The notes: a model not told the origin generated them from the letters alone. 64,000 nt of DNA from Alphaproteobacteria bacterium (GCA_016124385.1 WGNU01000005.1:496001-560000), one strand, 5' to 3'. Counted from the stretch's first letter, positions 13,166 to 34,070 are shown. Numbers and translations: made by a program.

Positions 13166-15121
13166 ATGGCCGACGTCGAAACGACGTTCGGGTGTGGGGT
13201 GATGCGGCCGGGTTGGGTGTGGGTGAGCGCATGGCTGTGCGCGGTGGCGGTCGGCATTTTTGCCGCCGTCGGCCCCTGGCTTGACCCCTCGACCGGCGGA
13301 CAGGTCGGCGGTTACCGTCTCGGCGAACACTACGCGATGGAATTGGCGCCGGTGCCGGGCGCGGCGCCCTCGCCCTGCGCGGCCTGCAAGCCGCTCGATG
13401 AATTGCGCGAGGCGTTCGTCCGCCGCACGGAAGGCGCGACGCGCCGCCTGGTAACACTTCGCTCGGCCCTTGAGGAGGCCGAGGCCGCGCAGATTAGCGG
13501 CGTCGCGGTTGCGGCCGGCGATACCTCCACCGTGTCTCTCGCGCACGAGATCAAGGACGCGGAACATTCGCGCGCGGCCGGCCTCGCCGCGATCGAGCGC
13601 CTCGATGTCTGGCGCACGCGCTGTCAGGCCGAGGCGGTGTGCCTTGCCCAGACGGTGGCGCCGGCCGGGCGCGTGTGCGCCGCGCCCGCGAGCCTGGCTG
13701 CCGTCCCCGAGATCCTCTCCCTTGCCGAAAGCGCACGCGCGATCGCCGATCAGTGCAAGGACGCATCCTGCCCGCTCCTTGATTGCCCGAAGGCGAACGC
13801 GGTGCGCGGAGCGCTCGCCGCGCTCGATCAGAGCCTGGTGGCCGAGGCCGGCATCGCCGCGACGCCCGAAGCCGGACCGCTCGAGACGCGCGTGCGCGGC
13901 GAGGTCGAGCGCTCGATCGAGGACATCCGCTATGCCGCGCGCGTGCTGCCCACGCTGTTCGATGATTCCGCCGACACCGCGTCCGACGACATCGCCGCGC
14001 TGGCCCACGAATTGATCCGCACACGGTTGAATTCGATCGCAAGCTTGGAGCGGGCGGCCTCCGGGTTCTCCAGCGATTCCGCGACCGTGGAGCGCCTCTG
14101 GCGGCTCCATGTGCTCAAGCTCGATCTCGCGAGCGTCGAGAACCTCGCGCGCCACGCGCTCGCGAAAGTTTCCGCTGAGCCCGCGGCCGCCGGCTGGATG
14201 CAGCTTGCCGATGATCTGGGCTCGGCGCTGCTCGGTACCGCGCGCCTGCAAACGACACTCGCCGCCGTGCCCGGGCCGGACGAGGAACCCTGCGCGGAAG
14301 GCGCGCCGCTGGCCGAGGCCGCCGCGGCGCTCTCCGCCGCGCTCGCCGGGCTCGATGCCTGCCGCCGGCGCGGGGGCTGCGACGTGCCGATGGCGGCCGA
14401 GCTCCACGCCGGGGCGAAGCCCGAGCCCGCTTCGCTGATGGAGCGGATCGCCGCCGCGCGTGCGGCGCTGCGCGGACTGACGGTCGCGCCCTCGCCCCAG
14501 CACACGCTCACGCTCGGCGAGGAGAAGATCGGCGCGGGCGAGCCCGTCACCGTCGCGCTCGGCACGGCCGGCATGACGTGCTTGCGCGATGCCGCGCCCC
14601 GCATCAGCCTTCGGCGTTGGCGCGCGCAGACGGGCGAAGACCTGACGCTCCGCCCGCTTCCGGTGCCGGGCGAGGAGGGCGCGCGCGCCATGGTCGCGCC
14701 CAGCGCCCCGGGGGTCTATGCGCTTGAGCTGCGCAGCCCGATCGCGCGCGGCGATGAAGTGCTCGCGAGCGGCAAGCTGCAAGTGACCGCCGCCCCACGC
14801 TCTTGCAGCGGTTTCGCCGGCCGCTGGGATCTGGGCGAGAGTGGCCTGCTCGTGCTCCATGTGAACGCTGATCGCGGCCAAGGCGTCCTCAGCGACCAAT
14901 CGGGCCAGATTCAGGCGCTCGTCGCCGGCACGGTGGTGGGCGATGTCTTCCGCGGCGAATGGGGCGATGGCACGGCGCGCGGCGGGCTGCGCCTCGTTCT
15001 GGCCGACGACGGCAAGCATCTCACCGGCACGACGGGCTTGCTGCCGAACGCGATCGCGGGGCTGGGCACGCTTGCCGGCCGCTGCGGCGGGGCGGAGCGG
15101 GCGGCGCTCGGCCGCCCTTAA
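13166..15121 (+). CDS. Hypothetical, probably exported or membrane-anchored Cys-containing helical protein
   Basis: 651 aa; N-terminal hydrophobic segment WVSAWLCAVAVGIFAAVGPW; paired cysteines (CAACKPL, CKDASCPLLDC, CRRRGGC); C-terminal beta-rich GRWDLGESGLLVL module. Confidence 0.65.
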   Translation: MADVETTFGCGVMRPGWVWVSAWLCAVAVGIFAAVGPWLDPSTGGQVGGYRLGEHYAMELAPVPGAAPSPCAACKPLDELREAFVRRTEGATRRLVTLRSALEEAEAAQISGVAVAAGDTSTVSLAHEIKDAEHSRAAGLAAIERLDVWRTRCQAEAVCLAQTVAPAGRVCAAPASLAAVPEILSLAESARAIADQCKDASCPLLDCPKANAVRGALAALDQSLVAEAGIAATPEAGPLETRVRGEVERSIEDIRYAARVLPTLFDDSADTASDDIAALAHELIRTRLNSIASLERAASGFSSDSATVERLWRLHVLKLDLASVENLARHALAKVSAEPAAAGWMQLADDLGSALLGTARLQTTLAAVPGPDEEPCAEGAPLAEAAAALSAALAGLDACRRRGGCDVPMAAELHAGAKPEPASLMERIAAARAALRGLTVAPSPQHTLTLGEEKIGAGEPVTVALGTAGMTCLRDAAPRISLRRWRAQTGEDLTLRPLPVPGEEGARAMVAPSAPGVYALELRSPIARGDEVLASGKLQVTAAPRSCSGFAGRWDLGESGLLVLHVNADRGQGVLSDQSGQIQALVAGTVVGDVFRGEWGDGTARGGLRLVLADDGKHLTGTTGLLPNAIAGLGTLAGRCGGAERAALGRP

Positions 15122-15750
15122 GACTTTACCGAATCCGTAAACGGAGCCGGGCCGTCCAGCGGCTCGATCCGCAGGCTGATCGGCGCCGCCCAGCGCACCC
15201 GCTGGCGATGCAGCGCGCTCTGCCCGGGGGTAAGCGGCACGAGCGTCACGTGATCGCGCCCGCCCGGCACGAGCCGCGCGATCAGCGTGCGCCCATCCGC
15301 CAGCCCTATGATGCAATCCCGGTCGAGCGCTAAGGCGATATCGCCGCGCCGCTGGCCGATCAGGATGTCGCCGGCCGAGAACCGGCCGAGCGGGGCGGAC
15401 AGCGTGACCGCGACCGCGTCCCCACCGGGCAGCGGAAGGCTAAACTCCGCCTGGCTCTCGCGCACGGCAGCGATATCACCCGTGGCGTCCGCCTGGCCCA
15501 GAAAGGCGGGCGGCCGCGCGCCCCCGCCCTCCACGAGATCGGCCGGCAGCACGCCGAGCGCCGAAGCGAACCGCTTCAGCCAATCGGTCGAGACGCTCAT
15601 CACCTCGGTCTCGAGCCGTGAAACCGTCTGCGGCGTCGTGCCCACCATCGCGGCCAGCTGCTGCAGCGTGAGGCCGGCCCGGTGGCGGTAATAGCGGATG
15701 CGGTTGTTCATCACCTCAGGATCCAAAAAACGAGGCGCAGCCTCGTCCAT
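15118..15750 (-). CDS. XRE-family repressor with LexA-like C-terminal fold; candidate RogA-like GTA repressor
   Basis: MNNRIRYYRHRAGLTLQQLAAMVGTTPQTVSRLETEV HTH; C-terminal FSAGDILIGQRRG..GLADGRTLIARLV; divergent from the DnaA-HTH/DUF6456 pair. Confidence 0.8.
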   Translation of the reverse strand: MDEAAPRFLDPEVMNNRIRYYRHRAGLTLQQLAAMVGTTPQTVSRLETEVMSVSTDWLKRFASALGVLPADLVEGGGARPPAFLGQADATGDIAAVRESQAEFSLPLPGGDAVAVTLSAPLGRFSAGDILIGQRRGDIALALDRDCIIGLADGRTLIARLVPGGRDHVTLVPLTPGQSALHRQRVRWAAPISLRIEPLDGPAPFTDSVKS

Positions 15751-15780
15751 TGACACGCGTTGTAGGAAACTTATCCTCGT

Positions 15781-15798
15781 CTTGCGGGATCGTGCAAG
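15781..15798. promoter_or_regulatory. Candidate operator in the divergent intergenic region (CTTGC-N8-GCAAG)
   Basis: CTTGCGGGATCGTGCAAG inverted repeat between the XRE gene and the DnaA-HTH gene; TTGACA (15750)-16 bp-TATCCT (15772) lies just upstream. Confidence 0.35.
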
Positions 15799-15834
15799 GA
15801 TTATAACCGATTTCGTAAATTTTTGGAGGTTTGG

Positions 15835-16224
15835 ATGCGCACCGCCCCGAGACCCTTGCATGCGAGAGGGCTGGCCGAGACGCCCATAGAGCTCGCACTC
15901 CGGCTTGTCGCCTTCATGCTCGACGTGCCGGTGGACGCCATCCGCGCGACGACCCGCTCGCGGGCCGAGGCCGCCTTTGCGCGCCAGCTCGTGATGTATC
16001 TCGCCCATGTGGGCTTCGGCTATTCGCTGAGCGAGGTGGGCGACGCCCTGGGCCGCGACCGCACCACCGTCTCGCACGCGTGCCACCGCGTGGAGGATCT
16101 GCGCGACGACCCGCAGGTCGAGGAAACGCTGGCCGCGCTCGAGCGCGCGCTTCAGGTTCGCTGCGATCGCCGGCTGCGCCGGTACGGACGGCCGCGTCAT
16201 GTCGCAGCGCTCGCCTGTCGTTGA
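15835..16224 (+). CDS. DnaA C-terminal-like helix-turn-helix protein; GafY-like
   Basis: LVMYLAHVGFGYSLSEVGDALGRDRTTVSHACHRVEDLRDD, the DnaA domain IV signature without an AAA+ domain. Confidence 0.8.
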   Translation: MRTAPRPLHARGLAETPIELALRLVAFMLDVPVDAIRATTRSRAEAAFARQLVMYLAHVGFGYSLSEVGDALGRDRTTVSHACHRVEDLRDDPQVEETLAALERALQVRCDRRLRRYGRPRHVAALACR

Positions 16225-16969
16225 TCGCGCGACAGCGCGGCTGTTGGCGGCGCTCTGCGCGCGCGGCGCCGTGCTCCGCGAGACGGCGGACGCGAGCGCG
16301 TTCATCGCCGAAGGAGATGGCGTGCCCCTGCGTCTGCCCGCCCGCCTCGTCGCCGCGCTCGAGCGCCGTGGCTTCTTGACCACCGGGCCGGAGAAGGCAA
16401 CGCGCGTGCCGACGCCCGCCGCCCATCATCTGGCGCGCCGGGCAACGCGCGTGCGCCGCCTCGTGCGCGCGCCCGATGGCACCGAGGTGCCGGTCGAGAT
16501 CGATCTCGCCGAAAGCCCGCTCACCTGGCTGGCGACCCGCAAGGACCGCGACGGCAAGCCGTTCCTCTCGCCAAGCGAGCTTGCGGCGGGCGAGCGGCTG
16601 CGCGCCGATTTCACGCAAGCGGGCTTGTCGCCGCGCGTGACCTCCGATGCCGGCGTTCCCGTCTCGCGCGAGCAGCGCGGCAGCCACGGCGCGGAGATGG
16701 CGCATGTCGCCGCGCTCGATGCCAAGCGCCGCCTCAATCGCGCATTGGCCGTGCTGGGGCCGGGCCTCAGCGATGTCGCGCTCTCGGTCTGCTGCTATTT
16801 GGAAGGCTTGGAGCAGGCCGAGAGCGCGCTCGCCTGGCCGCGCCGGTCGGGCAAGATCGTGCTTAAGATCGCGCTCCGGCTGCTCGCGCGCCACTATGGC
16901 CTTGAGCACGCGCCGCGCGAGCGCGCGCCGATCCGCGCCTGGCGGAGCGAGGGGGGCGATGCCGCCTGA
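16199..16969 (+). CDS. DUF6456 domain protein; GafZ-like
   Basis: 256 aa; SPLTWLATRKDRDGKPFLSPSELAAGERLRADFTQAGLSPRVT..., LSDVALSVCCYLEGLEQAE; 26-nt overlap with the upstream gene. Confidence 0.75.
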   Translation: MSQRSPVVDRATARLLAALCARGAVLRETADASAFIAEGDGVPLRLPARLVAALERRGFLTTGPEKATRVPTPAAHHLARRATRVRRLVRAPDGTEVPVEIDLAESPLTWLATRKDRDGKPFLSPSELAAGERLRADFTQAGLSPRVTSDAGVPVSREQRGSHGAEMAHVAALDAKRRLNRALAVLGPGLSDVALSVCCYLEGLEQAESALAWPRRSGKIVLKIALRLLARHYGLEHAPRERAPIRAWRSEGGDAA

Positions 16970-19147: not shown

Positions 19148-20923
19148 ATGACCCTCGCCCCCGACGGGGTGCCCGTCGCGCGACGCCCGCGCGGCGCGGC
19201 GGCTCAACGTCTGACGTCCCGTTCCGCGACGTCGCATCGCCTGTCCTCCTTTGAGACTGCGCAGGGTCTCGGCGGGCTGATCGGCGTCTTGGTCGCGGCC
19301 GGCTTCATCGTGTGGGTCGGCTGGCCGGACCTCATCGAGGCGATCGCGCTCACCTGGCTGGTCGTGCCGCTGGCGCTTGCGATCGCGGCTAACCGTGCGC
19401 CGCGCTCCCCCTGGCCGCAAGCGCTGTCGGTCCTCAGCGTGAACGGATTGACGATTTTCGTTGCGGCATTTTCAGGAGGCGCGCTCTCGCCCTTCGCGCT
19501 CTGGCTGGTTTTGGCGCCGTTCGAGGCGGCGCTGCGCCGCCACCGCGCGATGGTCTGGCTCGCGATGGGATCGGCGGCGCTGGGCTATGCGGGGCTCCTG
19601 GCGCTGAGCGCGCTGGACGCGCTCCCGCCCTCGCGCCTGACGCCCGCATTCGCCGAGATCCTCTTTGCCGCGCTGCCGCTGCTCGCGATCCTTTACGCGG
19701 GCGCCGCCGCCTTGAGCGCCGACCGCGCCTATCGCGCCGCCGCCCGCGCGGCCGAGGAGGGCGCGGCGCATTACCGCCTGCTCGCTGAGAACGCGGGCGA
19801 CATGATCACGCGTCACCGCGCCGACGGGCGGATCGTTTTCGTCTCGGCCGCCGCGCGCGCGCTCACCGGCTACGCGCCCGAGGATCTCATCGGCCGCGCG
19901 CCGGGCGATCTCGTGCACGGCGAGGATCTCGCCAAGATGGAGACGGCCTTCGCCGAGGCGAGCTATCGCGGCCGCGACGCCGCCGCCGAGATCCGCCTGA
20001 AGCGCGCGGATGGCGAGTATGCTTGGGTGGATCTGCGCTGCCGGCCGACGCGCGAGGGCGGTGAGGCGGGCGCGATCGTCGCCGTCACGCGCGACATCGC
20101 CGAGAGGAAGCGCCACGACGCCGAACTGAAGGCCGCGTGCGACGCGGCCGAGGCGGCCAACCGGGCGAAGTCGCGCTTCCTCGCGAACATGAGCCACGAA
20201 TTGCGCACGCCCCTGAACGCGATCATCGGGTTTTCCGATATGATGCGCCAAGGCATGTTCGGACCCATCGGCCACGCGAAATACGAGGAATATGCTGGGC
20301 TCATCCACGGCTCGGGCGAGCATCTGCTCGCGCTCATCTCCGACATCCTCGACATGTCGAAGGTCGAGGCCGGCAAATACGAATTGCAGAAGGAGCGGGT
20401 CGATCTGGGTGCGCTCATCGCTGAGACGCTGACGATCATGCGCGTGGGCGCGGAGCAGCGGAAGATCCGCCTGCGGACGGAATGGCCCGATGCGCCGCCC
20501 GCGCTTGAGGCCGATCGCCGTGCGCTGAAGCAGATCTTGCTCAACCTCCTCTCGAACGCCGTCAAATTCACGCCCGAGGGCGGCCGCGTGACGGTATCGG
20601 TCGCGCGAAGCGAAAACGGCCTGCGTCTCACCGTCAGCGATACCGGGCGCGGCATTCCCGCGGAGGCGCTCTCGCGCCTCGGCGCCGCGTTCGAACAGGT
20701 GGCCGGCGCCTATACCAGCGGCCAGCCCGGCACGGGGCTCGGCCTTGCGATCGTCAAGGCGCTCACCGGTCTTCACGGCGGCACGATGACGATCGAGAGC
20801 GAATTGGGGCGCGGCACGCGCGTCACGATCGCGCTGCCCGCCGCATGCATCCTGCCGCCAGAGCACGCGCCGGAGGGTGAGAGCAACATCCACTATCTAG
20901 AGCCGCGCCGGGCGAGCGCGTGA
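19148..20923 (+). CDS. Membrane PAS-domain sensor histidine kinase (PleC/DivJ-like architecture)
   Basis: PAS region; RFLANMSHELRTPLNAIIGFSDMMRQGMFG H-box, NLLSNAVKFTPEGG N-box, DTGRGIP, GTGLGLAIVK. Confidence 0.92.
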   Translation: MTLAPDGVPVARRPRGAAAQRLTSRSATSHRLSSFETAQGLGGLIGVLVAAGFIVWVGWPDLIEAIALTWLVVPLALAIAANRAPRSPWPQALSVLSVNGLTIFVAAFSGGALSPFALWLVLAPFEAALRRHRAMVWLAMGSAALGYAGLLALSALDALPPSRLTPAFAEILFAALPLLAILYAGAAALSADRAYRAAARAAEEGAAHYRLLAENAGDMITRHRADGRIVFVSAAARALTGYAPEDLIGRAPGDLVHGEDLAKMETAFAEASYRGRDAAAEIRLKRADGEYAWVDLRCRPTREGGEAGAIVAVTRDIAERKRHDAELKAACDAAEAANRAKSRFLANMSHELRTPLNAIIGFSDMMRQGMFGPIGHAKYEEYAGLIHGSGEHLLALISDILDMSKVEAGKYELQKERVDLGALIAETLTIMRVGAEQRKIRLRTEWPDAPPALEADRRALKQILLNLLSNAVKFTPEGGRVTVSVARSENGLRLTVSDTGRGIPAEALSRLGAAFEQVAGAYTSGQPGTGLGLAIVKALTGLHGGTMTIESELGRGTRVTIALPAACILPPEHAPEGESNIHYLEPRRASA

Positions 20924-21258
20924 GCGAGCCGCGCCTGAAAACCGGCTTCTTCGTCGCCGCCCATATCCGCCGCTGCGAAGGAGAGGGCATTGCCGCGATG
21001 CTCGTGCGCCGGGGCGCGGAGGAAGCGGGCGACCTCCTCATCAAGCTGAACTACCTCGATGGCCGTGCGCTCGTCTTTACACGGACGACCCTGGGCGACG
21101 GCACGCGCGCCTGGATGCGCGCGCCCGCGCCCGATCCCGTTGCGGAGGCGGACGCCGATGCCTACATCCAGCGCCGGCTGAAACAGGACCCCGACATCTG
21201 GATCCTCGAGATCGAGGACCGCCACGGCCGCCACCTCTTGGACGACAAGGTGGTGTGA
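20920..21258 (+). CDS. DUF1491 family protein
   Basis: RLKTGFFVAAHIRRCEGEGIAAMLVRRGAEEAGDLLIKLN...DPDIWILEIEDRHGRHLLDDKVV; ATGA overlap with the kinase. Confidence 0.85.
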   Translation: MSEPRLKTGFFVAAHIRRCEGEGIAAMLVRRGAEEAGDLLIKLNYLDGRALVFTRTTLGDGTRAWMRAPAPDPVAEADADAYIQRRLKQDPDIWILEIEDRHGRHLLDDKVV

Positions 21259-21269
21259 GGCTCATCCCT

Positions 21270-21729
21270 CATGGCCCGCGAAGGCGGTACCTCCTTGTCC
21301 CCCAATGTCATGGTCCGCGAAGGCGGTACCTCCTAGTCCCCCGGTGTCATGGTCCGCGAAGGCGATACCTCCTCCTTGCCCCCAATTGTCATGGTCCGCG
21401 AAGGCGGTACCTCCTAGTCCCCCGGTGTCATGGTCCGCGAAGGCGATACCTCCTCCTTGCCCCCAATTGTCATGGTCCGCGAAGGCGGACCATCCATGCC
21501 TTGGACGAATCGCGGGAAACGCCGCCAAGCCATGGACCCTCCGCCTTCGCGGAGGGTGACAAGAAAGAAGTGGGGGCGGAGCCTTGTGTCGTCCCCCCAA
21601 TTGTCATGGTCCGCGAAGGCGGACCATCCATGCCTTGGACGAATCGCGGAAACGCCGCCAAGCCATGGACCCTCCGCCTTCGCGGAGGGTGACAAGGAGG
21701 GGTGAAGGCGGACCATCCACGCCTTGGCC
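21270..21729. repeat. Nested tandem array of palindromic class 2 repeat (GTCATGGTCCGC-NNNN-GCGG...)
   Basis: CATGG unit starts at 21270, 21309, 21348, 21390, 21429, 21471, 21605; periods 39/39/42/39/42/134, giving an 81-bp superperiod. Confidence 0.9.
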
Positions 21730-22017
21730 TCACCGATTGAGATCCAAAGAGAGGTCCCGCCAATCAGGATTGCCTTGCTGGATCAGCCGCACCTTCCACG
21801 CCCGATTCCAGGTTTTTAGCCGCTTCTCGCGCCAGATCGCGTCGCGGATGTCGGCATACGCCTCGTAGTGGACGAGCCGGGCAAGCCCATAGCGCGCGGT
21901 GAAGCCGGGCACCGCCTTCTCGCGATGTTCATGAACGCGCCGTGCGAGATCGTTGGTGACGCCCACATAGAGCGTGCCGTGCGGCCGGTTCGTGAGGATG
22001 TAGACCCAATTGGGCAT
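21730..22017 (-). CDS. GIY-YIG nuclease family protein (YhbQ/UPF0213-like)
   Basis: MPNWVYILTNRPHGTLYVGVTNDLARRVHEHREKAVPGFTARYGLARLVHYEAYADIRDAIWREKRLKTWNRAWKVRLI. Confidence 0.93.
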   Translation of the reverse strand: MPNWVYILTNRPHGTLYVGVTNDLARRVHEHREKAVPGFTARYGLARLVHYEAYADIRDAIWREKRLKTWNRAWKVRLIQQGNPDWRDLSLDLNR

Positions 22018-22023
22018 CGCGAA

Positions 22024-22056
22024 GCCGTGGATGGTCCGCCTGCGCGGACCATGACA
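22024..22056. repeat. Class 2 palindromic repeat, inverted orientation, at the 5' side of the GIY-YIG gene
   Basis: GCCGTGGATGGTCCGCCTGCGCGGACCATGACA; 16 bp (22026-22041) is the exact reverse complement of 21706-21721. Confidence 0.9.
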
Positions 22057-22172
22057 CAAGGGGCGCGGCGGAACCACCGAGCCGGAGGCCGTGCGCGCGG
22101 CGGAGCGAACGCAAGGGCATGACAACGCCCCCCGCCCGCGCTAGAACCCCCCGCTTCGATGAGGACCACCGC

Positions 22173-23774
22173 ATGAGCACCGCCGCGACGACGGCCGCGC
22201 CGCCATCCGCGCCCACGGGCGCGCCGCGGCGGACCTTCGCCATCATCTCGCACCCGGACGCGGGCAAGACGACGCTGACGGAGCATCTCCTCCTCATGGG
22301 CGGCGCGATCCGGCTCGCGGGCGAAGTGAAGGCGAAGGGCGAGCGCCGCCGCGCGCGCTCCGACTGGATGAAGATCGAGCAGCAGCGCGGCATTTCGGTG
22401 ACGACCGCCGTCATGACCTTCGAGCGCGGCGGCGTCACCTTCAACCTGCTCGACACGCCGGGCCACGAGGATTTCTCGGAAGACACCTACCGCACGCTCA
22501 CCGCCGCCGACAGCGCGGTCATGGTGCTCGACGCCGCGCGCGGCATCGAGGCGCAGACCTTAAAGCTCTTCGAGGTCTGCCGCCTGCGCGACATTCCGAT
22601 CCTCACCTTCATCAACAAGATGGACCGCGAGACGCGCGATCCGCTGGAACTGCTGGACGAGATCGCGTCCCGCCTCGCGCTCGAAACCGCGCCCATCACC
22701 TGGCCCGTCGGCATGGGGCAGGGCTTTCGCGGCGTCGCCAATCTGTATACGGATGAATTCATCCCCTTCTCGCGCGAGGGCGCCCCGCACCCGGAGCCCG
22801 TACCCTTGACCGGCCCCGCGATCGAGAAACTCCTTACGCCCGCCGAACGCGAAAAACTCGCCGAGGACGCAGACCTCGTGCGCGGCGTCTATCCCCCCTT
22901 CGATGAAACCCATTTCCGCGAGGGGCATCTGACACCGGTTTTCTTCGGCTCGGCGCTGAAGGGCTTCGGCGTGAAGGAATTGCTGGACATGCTCGCCGCC
23001 GCCGCGCCCGGCCCCGGCCCCCGCCACTCGACGGCGCGCGACGTTGCGCCCGATGAGCCGAAAGTCTCCGGCTTCGTCTTCAAGGTGCAGGCGAACATGG
23101 ACCCCAAGCACCGCGACCGCGTGGCGTTCCTCAGGCTCTGCTCGGGCAAGTTCAGGCGCGGCATGCAGCTGCGCCAGACCGGCACCGGCAAGACGGTCGC
23201 GGTCCACAACCCCATCCTCTTCTTCGCAAGAGAGCGCGAGATCGTGGACGAGGCCTTTCCGGGTGACATCATCGGCATTCCCAATCACGGCGTGCTGCGC
23301 GTCGGCGACACGCTGACCGAGGGCGAGGATCTGGCCTTCACCGGCATTCCCGATTTCGCGCCGGAGATTCTGCGCCGCATCCGCCCGCGCGATCCCATGC
23401 GCGCGAAGCATCTGGGCCGCGCGCTCGAGGCGCTGGCCGAGGAGGGCGTCACGCAAGTCTTCAAGCCGATGATCGGCTCGGCCAATTGGATCATCGGCGT
23501 CGTCGGGCAATTGCAGTTGGACGTGCTCGCGAGCCGCATGGTCGCCGAATACGACATCGACGCGATCCTGGAGGCGAGCCCTTACGAGACCGCGCGCTGG
23601 GTGCTGTGCGACGACGCGGCCGCGCTCAAATCCTTCCTCGATGCCAATACCGGCCAGCTCGCGACCGATCGCGACAACGCGCCGGTGTTTTTGGCGAAAG
23701 GCGCGTGGGAGCTCAACTACGCGGCCGAGAAATGGCCGCAGATCCGCTTCGCCAAAACGAAGGAACGCGCGTGA
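22173..23774 (+). CDS. prfC: Peptide chain release factor 3
   Basis: RRTFAIISHPDAGKTTLTEHLLL, RARSDWMKIEQQRGISVTTAVM, DTPGHEDFSEDTYRTL, NKMDRE; full-length RF3-like GTPase. Confidence 0.95.
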   Translation: MSTAATTAAPPSAPTGAPRRTFAIISHPDAGKTTLTEHLLLMGGAIRLAGEVKAKGERRRARSDWMKIEQQRGISVTTAVMTFERGGVTFNLLDTPGHEDFSEDTYRTLTAADSAVMVLDAARGIEAQTLKLFEVCRLRDIPILTFINKMDRETRDPLELLDEIASRLALETAPITWPVGMGQGFRGVANLYTDEFIPFSREGAPHPEPVPLTGPAIEKLLTPAEREKLAEDADLVRGVYPPFDETHFREGHLTPVFFGSALKGFGVKELLDMLAAAAPGPGPRHSTARDVAPDEPKVSGFVFKVQANMDPKHRDRVAFLRLCSGKFRRGMQLRQTGTGKTVAVHNPILFFAREREIVDEAFPGDIIGIPNHGVLRVGDTLTEGEDLAFTGIPDFAPEILRRIRPRDPMRAKHLGRALEALAEEGVTQVFKPMIGSANWIIGVVGQLQLDVLASRMVAEYDIDAILEASPYETARWVLCDDAAALKSFLDANTGQLATDRDNAPVFLAKGAWELNYAAEKWPQIRFAKTKERA

Positions 23775-23778
23775 AGGC

Positions 23779-24894
23779 TCACCCCGCCGCCGCGGCCGCC
23801 GCCGGCGCGTCCATCGCCTGCTTGCGCACTTTCCAGAACCGCATGGCGCGCTGCGCGGCCTCGATCGGCACCTTGTCGTAAAGCGCGAGCAGGTTCGCCG
23901 TTTCATCGGTCGAGCGCACGGTCGAGGGATCGCTCAGAAGCGCGAACGTCGAAAAGGTCGAACGGTCGAAGCGCGCCGCCTTGCACGCGATCGCCAGCGC
24001 CTCCGCGCCGCCCTTGGTGATGATGCGCTGCGCCGTCGACAGGTCGAGATCGGTGAGCTTGGAAAAGCCGATGATGAATTCGTTGGCGCGCTTGGCTTTC
24101 GCGAGTTCGACCAGCAGCCGTTCGGTAAGCCCGCGCTCGCGCTCCTTCTGGGCGATGAAGCGCTCGGCGTTCGCCCATTGCGGCGAGGGCGCCAGCAGCT
24201 TGCGGCGGATGCGGGAGCGCGAAATGACGAGCGCGCGCTCGATCGCGGCCTCATCGAAACTGGCGAGACGTTCCACCAGATGCTGCTTCACGGCGGAGGT
24301 GACGAACAGCAGCATCTCGTTGACGAGATCGGGCGGCAGATCGGCGCGCTGCGCGACCGGCGTCTGCAGGCGCGCGTTTGTCTCGGCCCGGTCCACCACG
24401 GTCTCGAGCGCGCCGCGCGAGAGGCTCGCCCCCGCGTTCTTGACGAGCGTCTCCAGCACGTTGTCGTCGGCGCGCGCGACGATCGCATCGGCCAGCGCCT
24501 CGCTCACGCTGGAGCGGCTCGAAAGGGCCTGAAGATGCTCCTGGCCCTTTTCGCCCGCGAGCGCGATGAGGTCGCGCTCCTCGAGCACCGGGCTGTGCGC
24601 GAGCACCGGCCGCGCGACTTCGATGTCGTCGGCCGCGAGGTCGAGGATCAGGTTGCGCGGCGCCTCCGCGACATGGGCGAGCGAGCCGGCGAGCTGCTTG
24701 CGCACGGTCAGCTCCATCTCCCGCGCGACCTGGCCCATGATCGCGCCGAAATGCGCGGTCTCGGATTCGGAGAATTTCTGCGGTTCGGCGAGGAAAAGAT
24801 CGGTCACGTCGCGCAGCAGCTCGCGGCGTTTTTCCGAGGACGGTTCCTTCGCCAGATCGACGAGGCGCGACAGGTTCTCGGCGGGGCGGCTCAT
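23779..24894 (-). CDS. DUF2336 domain-containing protein
   Basis: DIEVARPVLAHSPVLEERDLIALAGEKGQEHLQALSSRSSVSEALADAIVAR; paralog of 9986..11032. Confidence 0.78.
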   Translation of the reverse strand: MSRPAENLSRLVDLAKEPSSEKRRELLRDVTDLFLAEPQKFSESETAHFGAIMGQVAREMELTVRKQLAGSLAHVAEAPRNLILDLAADDIEVARPVLAHSPVLEERDLIALAGEKGQEHLQALSSRSSVSEALADAIVARADDNVLETLVKNAGASLSRGALETVVDRAETNARLQTPVAQRADLPPDLVNEMLLFVTSAVKQHLVERLASFDEAAIERALVISRSRIRRKLLAPSPQWANAERFIAQKERERGLTERLLVELAKAKRANEFIIGFSKLTDLDLSTAQRIITKGGAEALAIACKAARFDRSTFSTFALLSDPSTVRSTDETANLLALYDKVPIEAAQRAMRFWKVRKQAMDAPAAAAAAG

Positions 24895-25035
24895 GGCGTC
24901 TCGCGGGGGCGGGCGGTTGGGTGTTTGCCCGAGCCTGCCGCAGAGCCGTTAAGAATCTCTAAGATTTCATGGCTAAATGCTGAAGGTCGGGGGCGGGCCT
25001 GGCCGCGCCTCGCCCCTTTTCCGCACGGGCCGATG

Positions 25036-25122
25036 CATCCTTCGAGGCCCTTTCGCCTCATCCTGAGGGCGAGCGCAGCGAGCGTCTCGAAGGGCGAGGC
25101 GAAAGGGCACCTCAGGATGAGG
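25036..25122. repeat. Palindromic intergenic repeat, class 1
   Basis: CATCCTTCGAGGCCCTTTCGCCTCATCCTGAGGGCGAGCGC...GGCGAAAGGGCACCTCAGGATGAGG. Confidence 0.85.
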
Positions 25123-25158
25123 ACGGGCGCGCGATTGCGATAATGTGGGACGCGGCGC

Positions 25159-26355
25159 CTAGCCGATCGTGACGAACGTGTCGGGATAAAATCCGTTGAA
25201 GCCTGTGCGCAGCGCGCAGGAATAAGCGCCGATCATGCCCCACTCGATCCAGTCGCCGGTCTCGGTTCCCTGCGGCAGCAGCACCGGGCGCGGCAGCACG
25301 TCGAGCGTGTCGCAGGTCGGCCCGAAGATCTTGTAGGGGCTCTTAGGCCCCTGCCGCTCGAAGGGCGTGCCGCCCTCGGTAAGGCTGATGACGCGCTTGG
25401 GGTAATCGACCGTCCAGCTCGGGATCGCCATCTCATCGAGGCTGCCATAGGTGCCGTCGTTGATGTAGATCGAGGAGCCGCGCCGGCGCACGACGAGCGT
25501 GACGAGCGAGACGCCCTCCGCGCACAGCGCGCGCCCCGGCTCGCTGTAGACGGGCGTGCCCTTGGGCAGCTTCAGCGCCGCGAGCCCGCTGCGCACTTCG
25601 GCGAAATAGACGCTGAGATCCTTCGCGTGATGGCCGGGATAGGGCACGGGGAACCCGCCGCCCACGTCGAGCGCGGCGAGCGTGACGCCCGCCTTCGCGC
25701 TCACCTCGGCGCAGATCGCGATCGCCTCGGAATAGGCTTCCGGGCGCAGGCACTGCGAGCCGACATGGAAGGTGAGGGCGGGCTTGCAGCCCGCCTCCGC
25801 GACGAGCTTCAAGAGCCGCGCGCCGTTCGCGGCGTTCGTGCCGAACTTGCTGGAGAGTTCGAGAAGCGCGCCCTCGACCGGCGTTGAGAGGCGCACGAAG
25901 AGCGTGAGGTCGCTCGCGCGCTTGCCTTTGAGCGCGCCCGTCTCGTCCAGCACGCGCGCGAGTTCCACCTCGTCATCGATCACGAAATCGCGCACGCCGT
26001 ATTTCTTGTAGGCGATACCCGCCGCGCCCGGCAGGCGGATCGGCGCCATGAAATGACACACGGCGTCCGGATAGCGCTTGGAGATGAGCGCCACCTCCGG
26101 AATCGAGGCCGTGTCGAAATGCCGGATGCCCGAGGCATAGATGAGATCGAGCACTTCGGGCGCGGGGTTCGCCTTCACGGCATAGAGCGTCGTGCCCGGA
26201 AAGCCTTTCAGAAACCGCTCGGCCGCCGCGCGGAATTTCTTCGGGTAGAGCGCATAGACCGGATCGACCGGCCGCAGACTACGGCACACGCGCTCGACGT
26301 CCTTGAAGTCGGGAAGCGCGCGCGCCGCTTGGCGCGGAGCGGTGGTCACGGCCAT
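25159..26355 (-). CDS. Type III PLP-dependent decarboxylase (ornithine/lysine decarboxylase family)
   Basis: FPGTTLYAVKANPAPEVLDLIYASG, LTFHVGSQCLRPEAYSEAI, LDVGGGFPVPYPG, YSEPGRALCAEG, FGPTCDTLDVL. Confidence 0.92.
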   Translation of the reverse strand: MAVTTAPRQAARALPDFKDVERVCRSLRPVDPVYALYPKKFRAAAERFLKGFPGTTLYAVKANPAPEVLDLIYASGIRHFDTASIPEVALISKRYPDAVCHFMAPIRLPGAAGIAYKKYGVRDFVIDDEVELARVLDETGALKGKRASDLTLFVRLSTPVEGALLELSSKFGTNAANGARLLKLVAEAGCKPALTFHVGSQCLRPEAYSEAIAICAEVSAKAGVTLAALDVGGGFPVPYPGHHAKDLSVYFAEVRSGLAALKLPKGTPVYSEPGRALCAEGVSLVTLVVRRRGSSIYINDGTYGSLDEMAIPSWTVDYPKRVISLTEGGTPFERQGPKSPYKIFGPTCDTLDVLPRPVLLPQGTETGDWIEWGMIGAYSCALRTGFNGFYPDTFVTIG

Positions 26356-26434
26356 GAACGAATCCTCGGCGAGGGGAAAAGCGCGCTGAGGATTAGGGCG
26401 CGCCAGCCTTTCGGTCAATCGCGCGGCGGTGACA

Positions 26435-26863
26435 TCACCGGCTCGCCGCCTCGCCGAATTGCCGCACGAACACCCGCGCCGCCGGATCGCGGAGCGATGC
26501 CGCCAGTTCGGTGAGGAACATCGGATCGAGCCGCTTGAGGCCGCGCACCGAGGCGATCTCGCTCGCGCGGGCCGGGCGGAAGCCCATGGCCCAGTCGGCG
26601 AAGTCGCGCGTCTCGGTTTGGCGGTCGTGGACGATCAGGAGGCCGCGATGGCGCGGGTCACGTCCGATCCGCGCGAGCGTCGCGGCGACCGCGTCCGGCG
26701 GCCCTTCCAGAACCTGGAGGATGTCCACCGAATCGTAGAGCAGCAGGCCCGTGACGCCGCAGGCCGTGTTGCGTCGGCGGGAGTCCTCCAGCAGCGCGAC
26801 GAGGTCGGCGTCACTGAAGGGTAGGGTGGCGGACGAAAGATAGACGATCTGGCGGTATGGCAT
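26435..26863 (-). CDS. Short BLUF-domain (blue-light, FAD) photoreceptor
   Basis: MPYRQIVYLSSATLPFSDADLVALLEDSRRRNTACGVTGLLLYDSVDILQVLEGPPDAV...FADWAMGF; Y8, N32, Q50, W91, M93 all present. Confidence 0.9.
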   Translation of the reverse strand: MPYRQIVYLSSATLPFSDADLVALLEDSRRRNTACGVTGLLLYDSVDILQVLEGPPDAVAATLARIGRDPRHRGLLIVHDRQTETRDFADWAMGFRPARASEIASVRGLKRLDPMFLTELAASLRDPAARVFVRQFGEAASR

Positions 26864-26949
26864 GGCACATCGGGACCTTCTCTTTCGAGAACGTCACACC
26901 GCGCGTAAAGGCGGCGTTAACGCCGGCCGCGATCGAGCGCGGCGGCGCG

Positions 26950-27432
26950 TCAGGGTTGAAGATGCACCGGCCGGCGCCCGTCGACCGAGGGCTGATAGAC
27001 GCGCGAGAAGGTCGCGAGCGCGCGCTTGACGACCGGCAGGTCAATGGGCTCGGCCATCTCGAAGCTCGTGAAGCCGACCCGCGTCATGAAGAAGAGCTGA
27101 TCGACCAGCACCTCGCCGGTCGCGCGCAGATCGCCGCTGAAGCCCAGCCGCTGGCGCAGCATCCGCGCCCAGGTATAGCTGCGCCCGTCGCGAAAAGTCG
27201 GGAAGGGCAGCGCGATCAGCGCGAGCCTGGCGACATCGCCCTGCAGCGCCTCCGGGCTCTGATCGTTCGGCAGCGCGACGCCGACGGGATCGCCCCGCTG
27301 AAGGATCGCGTCGCGCTCGTCCTGGAACCGCTTGAGACTGACGAGCACCGCGCCCGCCGCCGGCAGCGGCGCATCGTCCGCGACCGCCGTGAAGGGATCG
27401 GCGATGATCGCGCCGTCTTTAATGAGCGCCAT
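26950..27432 (-). CDS. DUF934 protein (sulfite-reduction associated)
   Basis: MALIKDGAIIADPF...LIALPFPTFRDGRSYTWARMLRQRLGFSGDLRATGEVLVDQLFFMTRVGF; overlaps the end of the sulfite reductase gene. Confidence 0.85.
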   Translation of the reverse strand: MALIKDGAIIADPFTAVADDAPLPAAGAVLVSLKRFQDERDAILQRGDPVGVALPNDQSPEALQGDVARLALIALPFPTFRDGRSYTWARMLRQRLGFSGDLRATGEVLVDQLFFMTRVGFTSFEMAEPIDLPVVKRALATFSRVYQPSVDGRRPVHLQP

Positions 27433-29077
27433 AGAGCCGTTCCTTGAAGGGCTGAACGCCGACGCGCCTAACGGTGTCGAGCAGGCGCTCGCCGCCGCCG
27501 CGCAGCGAGAGATAGGTCTCGACCACGGTCTCAACCGCATCGACGATCTTCGTCTCGTCGAACGCGGGCCCGAGGATTTCGCCGAGCGAGGCATCCTCCG
27601 CGCCCGAGCCGCCGAGCAGAATCTGGTAATTCTCGACGCCCTTCCGGTCGACGCCCAGAATGCCGATATGCCCGGCGTGGTGGTGTCCGCACGCGTTGAT
27701 GCAGCCCGAGATCTTCACCTTCAATTCGCCGATGTCGCGCTGGCGTTGCAGATCGGCGAACCGCGTCGCGATCGCCTGGGCGACCGGGATGGAGCGCGCG
27801 TTGGCGAGGTCGCAATAATCGAGCCCCGGACAGACGATCATGTCGGAGATGAGCCCGAGATTGGCGGTCGCGAGGCCCTGCGCCTGAAGTCCCTGCCAGA
27901 CCGCGAAGAGATCCTCCTTCTTCACGTGCGGCAGCACGAGGTTCTGCTCGTGGGAAACGCGGATCTCGTCGAACGAGAAGCGCTCCGCGAGGTCGGCGAC
28001 CGCCTCCATCTGCGTGTCGGTGGCATCGCCCGCGATCCCGCCAATGGGCTTCAAGGAGATCGTCGCGACCGCATAGCCCGCCTGCTTATGCGCGGCGACG
28101 TTCTGGTTGACCCACTCGGCGAACGCGGGCTCGCGCGCCATCGCCGCGTCGAACGCGGGCGAGGCATCGGGGAGGGACGCGAAGGCGGGCGGCGCGAAAT
28201 AGGCCGCGATCCGCGCCATCTCGGCCTCGGGCAGTGCCAGATGGCCCTCGCGCTTGATCTCGGCGAATTCCTCCGCCACCTGCCGGCGCATCTCCTCCGC
28301 GCCGATCTGATGCACGAGGATCTTGATCCGCGCCTTGTAGAGATTGTCGCGCCGCCCGTAGGCATTGTAGACGCGCATCACGGCTTCGAGATAGGCGAGA
28401 ATGTCCGCCTTCGGAACGAAATCGTTGAGCGCGGGGCCGATGAAGGGCGTCCGCCCCATGCCGCCGCCCACATGCACGCGGTAGCCGACCGCGCCCTGAT
28501 CGTTCCGCACCACCTGAATGCCGATGTCGTGCAGCTGGATCGCCGCGCGGTCTTGTTTGGCGCCCGCGACCGCGATCTTGAACTTGCGCGGCAGGAACGA
28601 GAATTCGGGATGGAACGTCGACCATTGCCGGATGATCTCCGAGAGGATCCGCGGATCCTCGATCTCATCGGCGAACGCGCCCGCATAGTGATCGGCGGTG
28701 ACGTTGCGGATGCAATTCCCGCTCGTCTGGATCGCGTGCATCTCGACGCTCGCCAGGTCATCGAGAATGGCCGGCACGTCGCCGAGCTTTGGCCAATTGT
28801 ACTGAATGTTCTGCCGCGTCGTGAAATGCCCGTAGCCTTTGTCGTAGACGCGCGCCACGTGCGCGAGCATGCGCATCTGGCGCGACGACAGCGTGCCGTA
28901 GGGGATCGCGACGCGCAGCATATAGGCGTGCAGCTGCAAATAGAGCCCGTTCATCAGCCGCAGCGGCTTGAAGCGCTCCTCGGTGATCTCGCCCTTGAGG
29001 CGCCGTTCCACCTGGCCGCGAAATTCCGCGACCCGTTCTTTGACGATCGTCGCGTCGAACTCGTCGTAGCGATACAT
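27419..29077 (-). CDS. Nitrite/sulfite reductase (CysI-type siroheme hemoprotein)
   Basis: GHFTTRQNIQYNWPKL, QTSGNCIRNVTADHYAG, KVKISGCINACGHHHAGHIGILGVDRKG. Confidence 0.92.
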   Translation of the reverse strand: MYRYDEFDATIVKERVAEFRGQVERRLKGEITEERFKPLRLMNGLYLQLHAYMLRVAIPYGTLSSRQMRMLAHVARVYDKGYGHFTTRQNIQYNWPKLGDVPAILDDLASVEMHAIQTSGNCIRNVTADHYAGAFADEIEDPRILSEIIRQWSTFHPEFSFLPRKFKIAVAGAKQDRAAIQLHDIGIQVVRNDQGAVGYRVHVGGGMGRTPFIGPALNDFVPKADILAYLEAVMRVYNAYGRRDNLYKARIKILVHQIGAEEMRRQVAEEFAEIKREGHLALPEAEMARIAAYFAPPAFASLPDASPAFDAAMAREPAFAEWVNQNVAAHKQAGYAVATISLKPIGGIAGDATDTQMEAVADLAERFSFDEIRVSHEQNLVLPHVKKEDLFAVWQGLQAQGLATANLGLISDMIVCPGLDYCDLANARSIPVAQAIATRFADLQRQRDIGELKVKISGCINACGHHHAGHIGILGVDRKGVENYQILLGGSGAEDASLGEILGPAFDETKIVDAVETVVETYLSLRGGGERLLDTVRRVGVQPFKERLYGAH

Positions 29078-29112
29078 GCTTCGATCCGCTTTCTCGTTCT
29101 TCGATCCTCATC

Positions 29113-29270
29113 CTCCCCCGCTTGCGGGGGAGGTCCGGCGAAGCCGGGGAGGGGGGAACGCGGCCCGCCCCCTCCGGCTCGCTGTGCTCGCCACCCTCGC
29201 CCTCGAGGGGAGGGTTTCGTTGGCATGCTCCCTCCCCCTTGTGGGGAGGGAAGGGGTGGGGGGCGTGGCC
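29113..29270. repeat. GC-rich palindromic intergenic repeat, class 3 (CTCCCCCGC..GCGGGGGAGG)
   Basis: CCTCCCCCGCTTGCGGGGGAGGTCCGGCGAAGCCGGGGAGG; related copies at 32672 and 38107. Confidence 0.75.
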
Positions 29271-29271
29271 C

Positions 29272-29565
29272 TCATGCGCCCGCCTGCTTGCCGAGATCGC
29301 GCCGCACGGTTGGCCCGGCGGCCCGGATGCGCTCGCGCGCGCTCTTGACGCTGAGCGCGCCGCCCGCGCCCTCGACCGCGATCAGATAGGGCGCGACGAC
29401 TTTGAGCTGGCGCACCGCGTTCTGCCCGATGGCCTCGAGCGCGGCGGCTTCGTCCTTCGTATGCGCGAGGCGCGCGCCGGAGAGATCGCCGACCCAGGCC
29501 TCGCCGTCGGCCAGATAGACGACCTCGCCGTCGGCGAGCCGATTCGCCGTGAGAACCTCGGGCAT
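29272..29565 (-). CDS. DUF2849 protein (sulfite-reduction associated)
   Basis: MPEVLTANRLADGEVVYLADGEAWVGDLSGARLAHTKDEAAALEAIG; upstream of cysI-like gene, same strand. Confidence 0.75.
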   Translation of the reverse strand: MPEVLTANRLADGEVVYLADGEAWVGDLSGARLAHTKDEAAALEAIGQNAVRQLKVVAPYLIAVEGAGGALSVKSARERIRAAGPTVRRDLGKQAGA

Positions 29566-29611
29566 GCCCATTCTCTCCTTGTCACGGGCCGCGTGGCACC
29601 CGTGTCGCATC

Positions 29612-29694
29612 ACCCTTCGAGGCCCGGCCCCTCATCCTGAGGTGGCCGCGAAACGGCCCTCGAAGGGCGAGGGGCCGGGCGCCTCAGGGTGAGG
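29612..29694. repeat. Palindromic intergenic repeat, class 1
   Basis: CACCCTTCGAGGCCCGGCCCCTCATCCTGAGGTGGCCGCG...GGGCCGGGCGCCTCAGGGTGAGG. Confidence 0.85.
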
Positions 29695-29785
29695 AAGGGG
29701 GTCCGATTGCCTGATGGATATATCGGCCCGCTGCTAAAAGATCAATCGCAAGTGTGGAATTTTATAATCCACATATGAGTATCGT

Positions 29786-30574
29786 TCAATTGCGCGGCGA
29801 GGCGCTTTCGTGCCACCGCCGCAGCAGCCACCATTCGATGAGCGAGACGATCGCGAAGACCAGCACGCCGAGCGCGGCAAGGAGCACGAGGGCGGCGAAC
29901 ATCTTGGCGACCTGCAGCCGGTTGCCCGCCTCGATGATCCGCCAGGCGAGCCCGGCCGTGCCGCCCGTGCCCGCGACGAACTCGGCGATCACGGTGCCGA
30001 CGAGCGCGAGCCCGGCCGAGATCTTCGCACCCGACAAGAGATAGGGGAGCGCGCTCGGCATCTCGAGCAGCCACAGCCGCTGCCAGCGCGTCGCGCCGTG
30101 CAGGCGAAAGAGTTCATCGAGATTGCGGTCGACCGATTTGAGTCCGATCGTCGTGTTCGCGAGCACCGGGAAGAGCGCGACGATGACCGCGAGGATGAGA
30201 ACGGCGAGCTGCGCGCGCTCGAGCCCCACCCAAATGACGATCAACGGCGCGATCGCGACGATGGGCGTCACCTGCAGGATGACGGCATAGGGCCAGAGCG
30301 CGCGCTCGATGACGGGGCTTTGCAGGAACAGCACCGCGAGCGCGACGCCGAGCGCGAGCGCGATCGCGAAGGCGGCCGCCGCGAGGCTCATCGTCACCGC
30401 CGCCGAAGCGAGGAGAGAGGCCGCATTCTCATAGAGGCTGAGCGCGATGGCGCTCGGCGCGGGCAGCACGAACGGCTTCACCGCGAACGCCGTGACCGAC
30501 CATTCCCACGCGAGGAGGAAGAAGACGAAGAGCGTCAGGGGCGTTCCGATGGCGATGAGGCGCTCGGCGGTCAT
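29786..30574 (-). CDS. ABC transporter permease (SsuC/ThiX-like)
   Basis: YAVILQVTPIVAIAPLIVIWVGL...LFRLHGATRWQRLWLLEMPSALPYLLSGAKISAGLALVGTVIAEF. Confidence 0.9.
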   Translation of the reverse strand: MTAERLIAIGTPLTLFVFFLLAWEWSVTAFAVKPFVLPAPSAIALSLYENAASLLASAAVTMSLAAAAFAIALALGVALAVLFLQSPVIERALWPYAVILQVTPIVAIAPLIVIWVGLERAQLAVLILAVIVALFPVLANTTIGLKSVDRNLDELFRLHGATRWQRLWLLEMPSALPYLLSGAKISAGLALVGTVIAEFVAGTGGTAGLAWRIIEAGNRLQVAKMFAALVLLAALGVLVFAIVSLIEWWLLRRWHESASPRN

Positions 30575-31308
30575 GGGCGCGGCTCCCCGCGCAGCGCCGC
30601 GCGCACGCGCTCGACGCGCGAGAGATAATCGGGCGAGGCGCGATAGCCGCGCGGCCGGGGCGTCGGGTCTGGATTGTCGATGGTCGCGACGATCCGCCCC
30701 GGATCGGCGTGCATGACGAGAATGCGGCTGGCGAGATAGACGCTCTCATAGACGCTGTGCGTGACGAACACCGCGCCGAATTTCCGCTGCGCGAAGAGCG
30801 CGAGCAGCTGGTCGTTCAAATCCTCGCGCGTCAATTCATCGAGCGCGGCGAAGGGCTCATCGAGCAGCAGCAGATTGGCCTCCGCGCTGAGCGCGCGCGC
30901 GAGCGAGACGCGCATCCGCATGCCGCCCGAAAGCTCGCGCGGAAGCGCCGCACCGCGATCGCCGAGCCCGACGGAGGAGAGCGCCGCCCGCGCGCGCTCG
31001 GTCCGCATCGCCTTCTCCGCGCCTTCGAGGCGAAGCGGCAGCGCGACGTTCTCCTCCGCGCTCGCCCAAGGCATCAGCGTTGCATCCTGAAAGACGAAGC
31101 CGAAGCGCGGCGCCGGCGTGGCCAGCGAGCGCAGCCCCGCGTTGAGCGGCATGAGGCCCGCGAGGAGCCTGAGGATCGTGCTCTTGCCGCAGCCCGACGG
31201 CCCGAGGATCGCCACCACCTCGTTCGCGCGCACGCTGAGGCTGACCGGGCCGATCTGCACGCCCGCGAAGGATTTCTCGGCTCTCTCGAGGGTGACGAGC
31301 GCGGTCAC
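30571..31308 (-). CDS. ABC transporter ATP-binding protein
   Basis: AILGPSGCGKSTILRLLAG Walker A, LSGGMRMRVSLARAL, LLLLDEPFAALDELTRE; GTG start overlaps the upstream stop. Confidence 0.92.
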   Translation of the reverse strand: MTALVTLERAEKSFAGVQIGPVSLSVRANEVVAILGPSGCGKSTILRLLAGLMPLNAGLRSLATPAPRFGFVFQDATLMPWASAEENVALPLRLEGAEKAMRTERARAALSSVGLGDRGAALPRELSGGMRMRVSLARALSAEANLLLLDEPFAALDELTREDLNDQLLALFAQRKFGAVFVTHSVYESVYLASRILVMHADPGRIVATIDNPDPTPRPRGYRASPDYLSRVERVRAALRGEPRP

Positions 31309-32294
31309 GGGGCCGGCGCAACGCCCGGCGGCGGCGGCAGGAACTCGGTCGAATAGGCGCGGCGCCACTCGAGGCTCGGCTCATAGACGCCGTTCGCCGA
31401 CATCACCTCGAAGAAATCCTTCCACCGCGTCTCGCTCATGAAGCCGATGCCGAAGGTCTGCGTCTCGGGCGTCTCGACGAGCCCGTTCGCGCGGATCGTC
31501 TGAATGGCTTGGCTCAGCACGTCGTCGGTCATTTCGGGATTGTCGGCCTTGATGAGCGCATTGCCGGGGGCGGGATCCTCGTGGAGATAGCTGCGCCAGC
31601 CCAGAAGGCTCGCCTCCACGAACGCGCGCACGGCCTGAGGTTTCTGCTCGGTCAGCGCCGTCGGCACGAGGATCATGTTCGCGTAGCCCGGATAGCCCGC
31701 ATCCGCGAGCAGGAAGACCTGCGGTTTGAAGCCGCCTTCCGTCTCGATGAGATAGGGCTCGGACGACAGATAGCCCTGCTGGATCGCCATGGGGTCGGTG
31801 AGGAACGGCGCGAGGTTGAACGTGTATTTGCGGATCTGATCGTCCGTGAAATCGAACTTCGCCGCCAGCCACACCCAGAACGCGCCGATCGTCGCGTCCG
31901 AGACCATGATCGGCTTGCCCTTCATGTCCGCGATCGATTGTACGTCCTCGCGCGGATGCGTGATGAGAACCTGCGGGTCCTTCTGGAAGACAGCCGCGAC
32001 CGCGACGATATCCGCGCCCGCCGCCACGAGATTGAGCGGGATGAAACTGTTCGATCCCATGCCCATGTCGGCCGCGCCCGCCGCCAGCAATTGGGGAATG
32101 TTGATCGCGGGCCCGCCCTGGATGATCTGAACGTCGAGGCCGCGCGCATCGTAAAGGCCGAGCGCCTTGGCCTGATAGAAGCCGCCATGCTCGGCCTGCG
32201 CCTTCCAATCGGTGACGAATCGGATCGTCTCGGCCGCGCGCGCGGGCGCGGCGAGCGCGAAGGCGGCGAGAACGACGGCGAAGAGAACGCGCAT
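31305..32294 (-). CDS. ABC transporter substrate-binding protein (NMT1/THI5-like)
   Basis: Signal peptide; IRFVTDWKAQAEHGGFYQAKALGLYDARGLDVQIIQGGPAINIPQLLAAGAADMGMGSNSF. Confidence 0.9.
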   Translation of the reverse strand: MRVLFAVVLAAFALAAPARAAETIRFVTDWKAQAEHGGFYQAKALGLYDARGLDVQIIQGGPAINIPQLLAAGAADMGMGSNSFIPLNLVAAGADIVAVAAVFQKDPQVLITHPREDVQSIADMKGKPIMVSDATIGAFWVWLAAKFDFTDDQIRKYTFNLAPFLTDPMAIQQGYLSSEPYLIETEGGFKPQVFLLADAGYPGYANMILVPTALTEQKPQAVRAFVEASLLGWRSYLHEDPAPGNALIKADNPEMTDDVLSQAIQTIRANGLVETPETQTFGIGFMSETRWKDFFEVMSANGVYEPSLEWRRAYSTEFLPPPPGVAPAP

Positions 32295-32359
32295 GGTGAC
32301 CCCTATTGCGGCGCGGCGAGGCTAGCGTGTCGGCGGCGGTGATGCCACTCCCACGACCT

Positions 32360-32445
32360 GTCATGGTCCGCGAAGGCGGACCATCCATGCCTTTCGACCC
32401 TGGCGGAGACCGAGCCGTGGATGCTCCGCCTGCGCGGAGCATGAC
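32360..32445. repeat. REPIN-like inverted doublet of class 2 repeats
   Basis: GTCATGGTCCGCgaagGCGGACCATCCATG ... CCGTGGATGCTCCGCctgcGCGGAGCATGAC. Confidence 0.85.
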
Positions 32446-32480
32446 TACAATAAGTGCCCCTCACTCCGGCTTCAGCGCCG

Positions 32481-32608
32481 GCGGCGATGCCGCTCCCTCG
32501 ACGTGTCATGGCCGGGCTTGTCCCGGCCATCCATCGCGCCCCGATCGACGCGGGGCGCCGCGACGGCTGAACCATGGATGGCCGCCACGAGGGCGGCCAT
32601 GACACGCA
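32481..32608. repeat. 128-bp direct repeat, copy 1, containing a class 2 inverted doublet (32505-32603)
   Basis: GTCATGGCCGGGcttgtCCCGGCCATCCAT ... ATGGATGGCCGCcacgagGGCGGCCATGAC; identical by eye to 32715-32842. Confidence 0.9.
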
Positions 32609-32671
32609 CGGATACCCTCACTCCGGCTTCGGCGCAGGCGGTGATGCGAGGGGATCGTTCCTGAACGCGCT

Positions 32672-32714
32672 CCTCCCCCGTCTACGGGGGAGGTCCGGCA
32701 AAGCCGGGGAGGGG
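32672..32714. repeat. Class 3 GC-rich palindromic repeat
   Basis: CTCCCCCGTCTACGGGGGAGGTCCGGCAAAGCCGGGGAGGGGG. Confidence 0.75.
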
Positions 32715-32842: not shown

Positions 32843-32851
32843 TGGATTTCC

Positions 32852-34068: not shown

Positions 34069-34070
34069 CG

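Follow-up and report, generated by a model that had tools for sequence, protein, structure and literature searches.

Gene transfer agents (GTAs) are tamed-virus gene clusters that ship random host DNA between bacteria, and outside Caulobacter and Rhodobacter the control of such domesticated phage clusters is an open question. In Caulobacter crescentus the repressor RogA (CCNA_00080), a 213-residue protein with a helix-turn-helix (HTH) and a LexA-like domain devoid of cleavage residues, binds GGAA-N4-TTCC and represses the gafYZ genes (CCNA_01111-01112), to which its own gene is unlinked (PMC9632790); further XRE proteins (RtrA, RtrB, CdxA and CdxB) also repress gafYZ (PMC10688885). GafY and IHF activate through RpoD, and GafZ, an antiterminator, loads onto a palindrome in the GTA promoter, between its -35 and -10 (PMC11150451). 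Rhodobacter GafA is a fused form of the two, the genes being split in Hyphomicrobiales with an HTH gene upstream (PMC9638019), and GafA is also carried by a roseophage (PMC6363796). Here we describe a locus in a 64,000-nucleotide stretch (the window) of an alphaproteobacterial assembly (contig C6, 496001-560000; 2.43 Mb, 74% complete), in which a minus-strand XRE repressor gene is opposed to a plus-strand gene for a DnaA-domain-IV protein (GafY) and an overlapping gene for a DUF6456 protein (GafZ). We conclude that this repressor-gafYZ locus is probably a dedicated on/off switch of the GTA cluster nearby.

The locus shares with the C. crescentus system a split GafY (DnaA_C) and GafZ (DUF6456), a repressor architecture of HTH plus, putatively, a degenerate S24-like domain, and a GTA promoter with a palindrome in its -35/-10 spacer. 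It differs in that the repressor belongs to a different, locally divergent family, gafYZ is linked to the GTA, and the predicted operator, unlike the Caulobacter RogA site in sequence, is present in two copies flanking the repressor gene. The match of gene order to Caulobacter claimed in a first-pass annotation of this DNA is not borne out, since rogA and gafYZ are unlinked there (PMC9632790). Rhodobacter capsulatus GafA has homologous N- and C-terminal domains and acts on an RcGTA-type cluster, but is a single fused protein where the window has two overlapping genes; in Rhodobacterales it lies between lipA and guaA (PMC6363796), unlinked to the GTA and with no adjacent repressor of the window's family. 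The split gafA loci of Hyphomicrobiales (Sherlock and Fogg 2022, PMC9638019) likewise place a small DnaA-like gene before the gene for the GafA C-terminal part and are reported to have an HTH gene upstream and sufE downstream, whereas the window has a MaoC-like gene and GTA linkage.

All three genes of the divergent arrangement noticed in the first-pass annotation, an XRE gene facing an overlapping DnaA-HTH/DUF6456 pair, were found, with their domains matched by Pfam. The 129-residue GafY is encoded directly before the DUF6456 gene (15835-16224, plus strand; Bac_DnaA_C, E=3.7e-16); its frame also lists TTG at 15823, and GGAGG at 15825-15829 favours ATG at 15835. gafZ (16199-16969, plus strand) encodes a DUF6456 protein (E=3.5e-50) with a sigma-region-4-like C-terminal HTH. 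In an AlphaFold2 (AF2) model built from 46 sequences (pLDDT 76), its C-terminal helices overlay the SigD domain that binds the -35 element (3vfz_A; 61 columns, 1.2 Å, TM 0.90 of target) with a Foldseek E-value that is not significant, a modelled fit agreeing with the published sigma-like HTH; a PDB sequence search with GafZ returned nothing convincing. DUF6456 is single-copy in the 2.43-Mb genome, and Caulobacter vibrioides alone matches among 14 named control genomes. On domain, order and profile we regard the GafY and GafZ identities as firm. The two genes do share 26 nt (16199-16224), but this overlap is absent in relatives such as G147, G208, G301 and G454, leaving the fixed stoichiometry suggested from it without support.

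The repressor gene (15118-15711, minus strand) lies in a frame open from 15118 to 16383; homologues and a ribosome site set its start at ATG 15711, which GAGG precedes, or 15750. Its N-terminal HTH matches Pfam HTH_31/HTH_3 (HTH_31, E=5e-11) and is followed by a putative degenerate S24-like C-terminal domain, although the window protein itself gave no Pfam S24 match. We searched 84 DUF6456-bearing genomes with profile A1, made from the window XRE protein and ten relatives, and found full-length relatives in 21 genomes and a weaker one in G377; all 22 are divergent beside the DUF6456 gene, and the searched genomes without a repressor beside that gene yielded no full-length relative. The repressor-gaf arrangement is found again in many families and so is not a product of chance. 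Genomes that are Caulobacteraceae-like, as judged from GafZ similarity to MW462191, carry instead a different S24 family of ~210 residues, which the HMMER profile of the repressor family does not match. Profile-profile comparison (hhalign) does align the two families (174 columns, prob 90, E=1.4e-6), with the Ser and Lys positions lost. The window repressor thus reads as a distant relative whose architecture is RogA-like rather than as an established RogA, and of the identities first proposed those of GafY and GafZ stand while the RogA label holds in part. The widespread S24 family, encoded away from gafYZ, is probably the true RogA; one member has, like the published RogA, lost the Ser/Lys pair.

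To locate sites for the repressor we used expectation-maximization (EM) on regions upstream of its gene in 20 genomes, which gave a 17-bp palindrome, TTTACSnATWnSGTAAA, with a log-likelihood of 97.7 against 30.6 (s.d. 3.3) in dinucleotide shuffles, uncorrected for shared ancestry. When a position weight matrix (PWM) built without the window's own sites was scored at 63,984 window positions, ranks 1 and 2 fell to two sites flanking the repressor gene: predicted operator 2, TTTACCGAATCCGTAAA, inside its 3' end (15125-15141; 21.2 bits), and predicted operator 1, ATAACCGATTTCGTAAA, between rogA and gafY (15803-15819; 19.6 bits); the third site reached 13.5 bits. With one mismatch allowed, the strict consensus occurs in the host genome solely at 15125, and across ten genomes its matches are few, with the rogA locus among them in five. 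The intergenic site is present in most repressor loci under leave-clade-out matrices, and the 3'-end site is seen again in G009, G147 and G058 (weakly in G143). Among 13 gafYZ promoters without the repressor, 12 score at most 7.5 (G018 scores 11.9). None of the top twelve PWM sites of the window falls in the GTA promoter, implying that repression would act via gafYZ. The predicted operators are 678 bp apart; since two convergent genes end at the 3' site, a promoter role is unlikely there, and our guess is a looping or auxiliary operator.

The cluster to be switched (36595-50618, plus strand) comprises a small terminase-like open reading frame, assigned by position and sequence reading, followed by terL, portal, protease, capsid and tail genes and GTA_TIM, with the terL-to-GTA_TIM set in RcGTA/CcGTA-type order. 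Pfam matched its terminase, portal, prohead protease, capsid, tail, GTA_TIM (E=3e-150) and Rcc01698_C products. From the end of gafZ to the small-terminase start (~36595) we measured 19.6 kb, in keeping with the earlier estimate of about 20 kb. Of 30 genomes that carry DUF6456 and GTA_TIM on the same contig, 26 have gafYZ 14-115 kb from the GTA, and in 26/26 of these, from eight families, it is on the cluster's 5' side; the exceptions are G158 and G339 (both Rhodobacteraceae-like), G290 and G458. The intervening host genes (19148-36179: His kinase, DUF1491, RF3, DUF2336, sulfite/nitrite reductase, ABC transporter and PBP1) are syntenic in families f1, f9 and f125, which argues that the linkage is inherited. 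GTA control here seems to take a variant form that is local and inherited.

A layout common to seven genomes, in which a TTG-type -35, a ~17-bp spacer and a degenerate -10 are followed 6-7 bp on by a ATCTCCAGAATTG-type element, placed the predicted GTA promoter at 36468-36520 (plus strand). Its -35 is TTGTCA (36468-36473), its -10 CACCTC (36491-36496), and a conserved start-region element, ATCTCTAGAACTG, begins at 36503. Within the spacer lies a ZBE-like palindrome, AGCGTCACGCT (36473-36483), a candidate GafZ element, with TTGNNAGCGNNNCGCT the candidate GafZ site in this promoter; read from sequence, the palindrome matches the Caulobacter GafZ element in position and symmetry. AGCG-N3-CGCT opens the spacer in the window, G403, G331 and G054, and in Rhodothalassium the same palindrome directly follows gafZ (TTGACAAGCGTGACGCT). 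An EM palindrome search at GTA promoters found no good 15-bp motif. The first-pass annotation mentions neither the predicted operators and GTA promoter nor the preserved linkage with its constant side, nor the head-of-cluster forms described below. The activators are of a known kind; as far as we found, the repressor, its paired predicted sites and the conserved position beside the cluster have no description in the literature.

In the mechanism that we propose, the XRE repressor would occupy the palindrome in the intergenic region that divides its gene from gafYZ, as well as the 3'-end copy, keeping gafYZ, and probably its own gene, off. When repression fails, and by analogy with Caulobacter, GafY would bind DnaA-box-like TTATCC elements to reinforce its own operon and would bring sigma-70 polymerase to the promoter of the GTA cluster (36.47 kb); GafZ may then load at the spacer palindrome through its sigma-region-4-like HTH end and ride with polymerase as an antiterminator across the 14-kb cluster.

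The proposed GafY sites also admit another explanation. DnaA boxes have the sequence TTATCCACA. The window's DnaA-box-like TTATCC element, AGGAAACTTATCCTCG (15764-15779, plus strand), is a candidate GafY site and is also a one-mismatch match to the Caulobacter RogA site. Given the likeness of TTATCC to a DnaA box and the homology of GafY to DnaA domain IV, such elements may be GafY autoregulatory sites: TTATCCNC recurs in the same orientation in 10/13 gafY-containing repressor loci (0.27 expected) and in 0/8 loci with gafZ but without gafY, and TTATCC occurs 28 times in 28 gafY promoters against 5.2 in shuffles. At only a little under an even chance, the element is instead a promoter -10 or an operator of the S24-type RogA, given that TATCCT stands 16 bp from TTGACA in a candidate gafYZ promoter (15750-15777, plus strand; sequence reading) and that in several genomes the element forms an overlapping palindrome, AGGAW-N4-WTCCT, resembling the Caulobacter RogA site. 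Against this, the gafYZ -35 is not kept in all relatives, the palindrome arms are lost in many genomes while TTATCC persists, and TTATCC is missing where gafY is missing. GGAA-N4-TTCC was rejected as a marker of RogA control because it is too common, one-mismatch matches numbering 23 in the window against 19 expected.

It seems rather unlikely that the GTA is mainly under the unlinked RogA-family S24 protein, as in Caulobacter, with the local XRE protein an accessory responding to another signal in the manner of RtrA, RtrB, CdxA and CdxB. The S24 family occurs in 27/40 genomes, the window's own included (C6:132118-132750, outside the window), GGAAACTTATCC, one mismatch from the Caulobacter site, sits within the gafYZ promoter (15765-15776), and Caulobacter gafYZ is under several XRE repressors (PMC10688885). 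Yet the local XRE gene is strictly co-located with DUF6456 genes and has its own predicted operators there, the equation of the S24 family with Caulobacter RogA is itself inferred, and GGAW-N4-WTCC palindromes showed no significant association with S24-family presence (p=0.20). That the locus is a relic no longer controlling the GTA, which may itself be silent in this incompletely assembled genome, is very improbable: gafYZ or repressor-gafZ is kept without GTA_TIM in some genomes, but the control-gene frames and GTA genes are intact and the predicted operators, promoter and synteny conserved. Several points do weigh against a dedicated local switch, among them the shuffle controls, which leave shared ancestry uncorrected, and the published RogA site of Caulobacter, which differs from the palindrome and has a near match (GGAAACTTATCC) at gafYZ. 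In the AF2 model of the repressor, built from three sequences, the HTH alone is reliable and the C-terminal part is of low confidence. Within the window's own family the repressor is confined to its genus, other genera searched being without it, and since many relatives lack it entirely the repressor is dispensable. No good operator was seen at three f12 loci (G012, G250 and G333), G125 has the locus but no GTA_TIM match, and the mapped GafY site of Caulobacter includes ACTATG, not TTATCC (PMC11150451).

A dedicated switch of this kind invites comparison with phage lambda, with which the locus shares a divergent cI-like repressor, a late-gene antiterminator near the late operon and possibly paired operators; no sequence similarity of GafZ to Q is reported, and looping and antitermination in the window would be so by analogy. 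In Rhodothalassium salexigens (L052) and the metagenome-assembled genome B26T1B10 (L039), repressor, gafZ, terL and portal follow in order and no gafY was found; in G130 the gene after gafZ is terL. In the IMG/VR contig L210 (IMGVR_UViG_2515154196_000001), a genuine prophage, the gene for a DUF6456 protein (E=7e-41) stands between phage primase genes and those for TerL, portal, protease and capsid, which is where lambda has Q; a weaker phrog_21451-type neighbour immediately precedes it, and there is a cI-type repressor upstream. These forms support, short of proof, an origin in phage late regulation. More tentatively, with confidence just below even, we suggest that the locus is what remains, in domesticated form, of the switch for immunity and late genes in the prophage ancestral to the GTA, with a cI-like repressor, two gene-flanking operators that might form a DNA loop and a Q-like antiterminator. 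It would first have headed the structural genes, a position that it still has in Rhodothalassium and that GafZ has in the L210 prophage, and later have moved 14-115 kb upstream with its side kept and gained gafY, Caulobacter and Rhodobacterales having lost the linkage and the local repressor. The locus adds a second family of repressors whose predicted operators are precisely defined, along with a GafY box and a GafZ site, both predicted. Rhodothalassium provides a culturable organism in which the switch adjoins the cluster, and the 5' linkage in eight families together with a prophage GafZ in the Q position makes the origin of GTA regulation directly testable.

Two other candidates for phage-borne copies were rejected. 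IMG/VR L202 and L203 are probably bacterial GTA regions, L203 having an ABC transporter between gafZ and terL. MW462191.1 (56124-96516; L145), labelled 'Bacteriophage sp.' in GenBank, is a mislabelled bacterial contig on which gafYZ and a SufE-like gene occur alongside numerous metabolic genes. The f12 genomes L124, L128, L151 and L152 have repressor and gafZ, with no gafY, no GTA_TIM and no terL within the few kb fetched. GTA_TIM is present in multiple copies in G411, G412 and G102, and in G456 (C1:1654359-1655245) it is broken across two frames, likely a decaying GTA. The ATCTCCAGAATTG-type element just 3' of the GTA promoter (36503-36520 in the window), seen in several families, could serve in pausing or loading at the start region, and the strong GC-rich inverted repeats GGCCGGGCTTGTCCCGGCC and GGCCGGCACGGGGGCCGGCC just before that promoter (36300-36440) are possibly a terminator or REP-type element.

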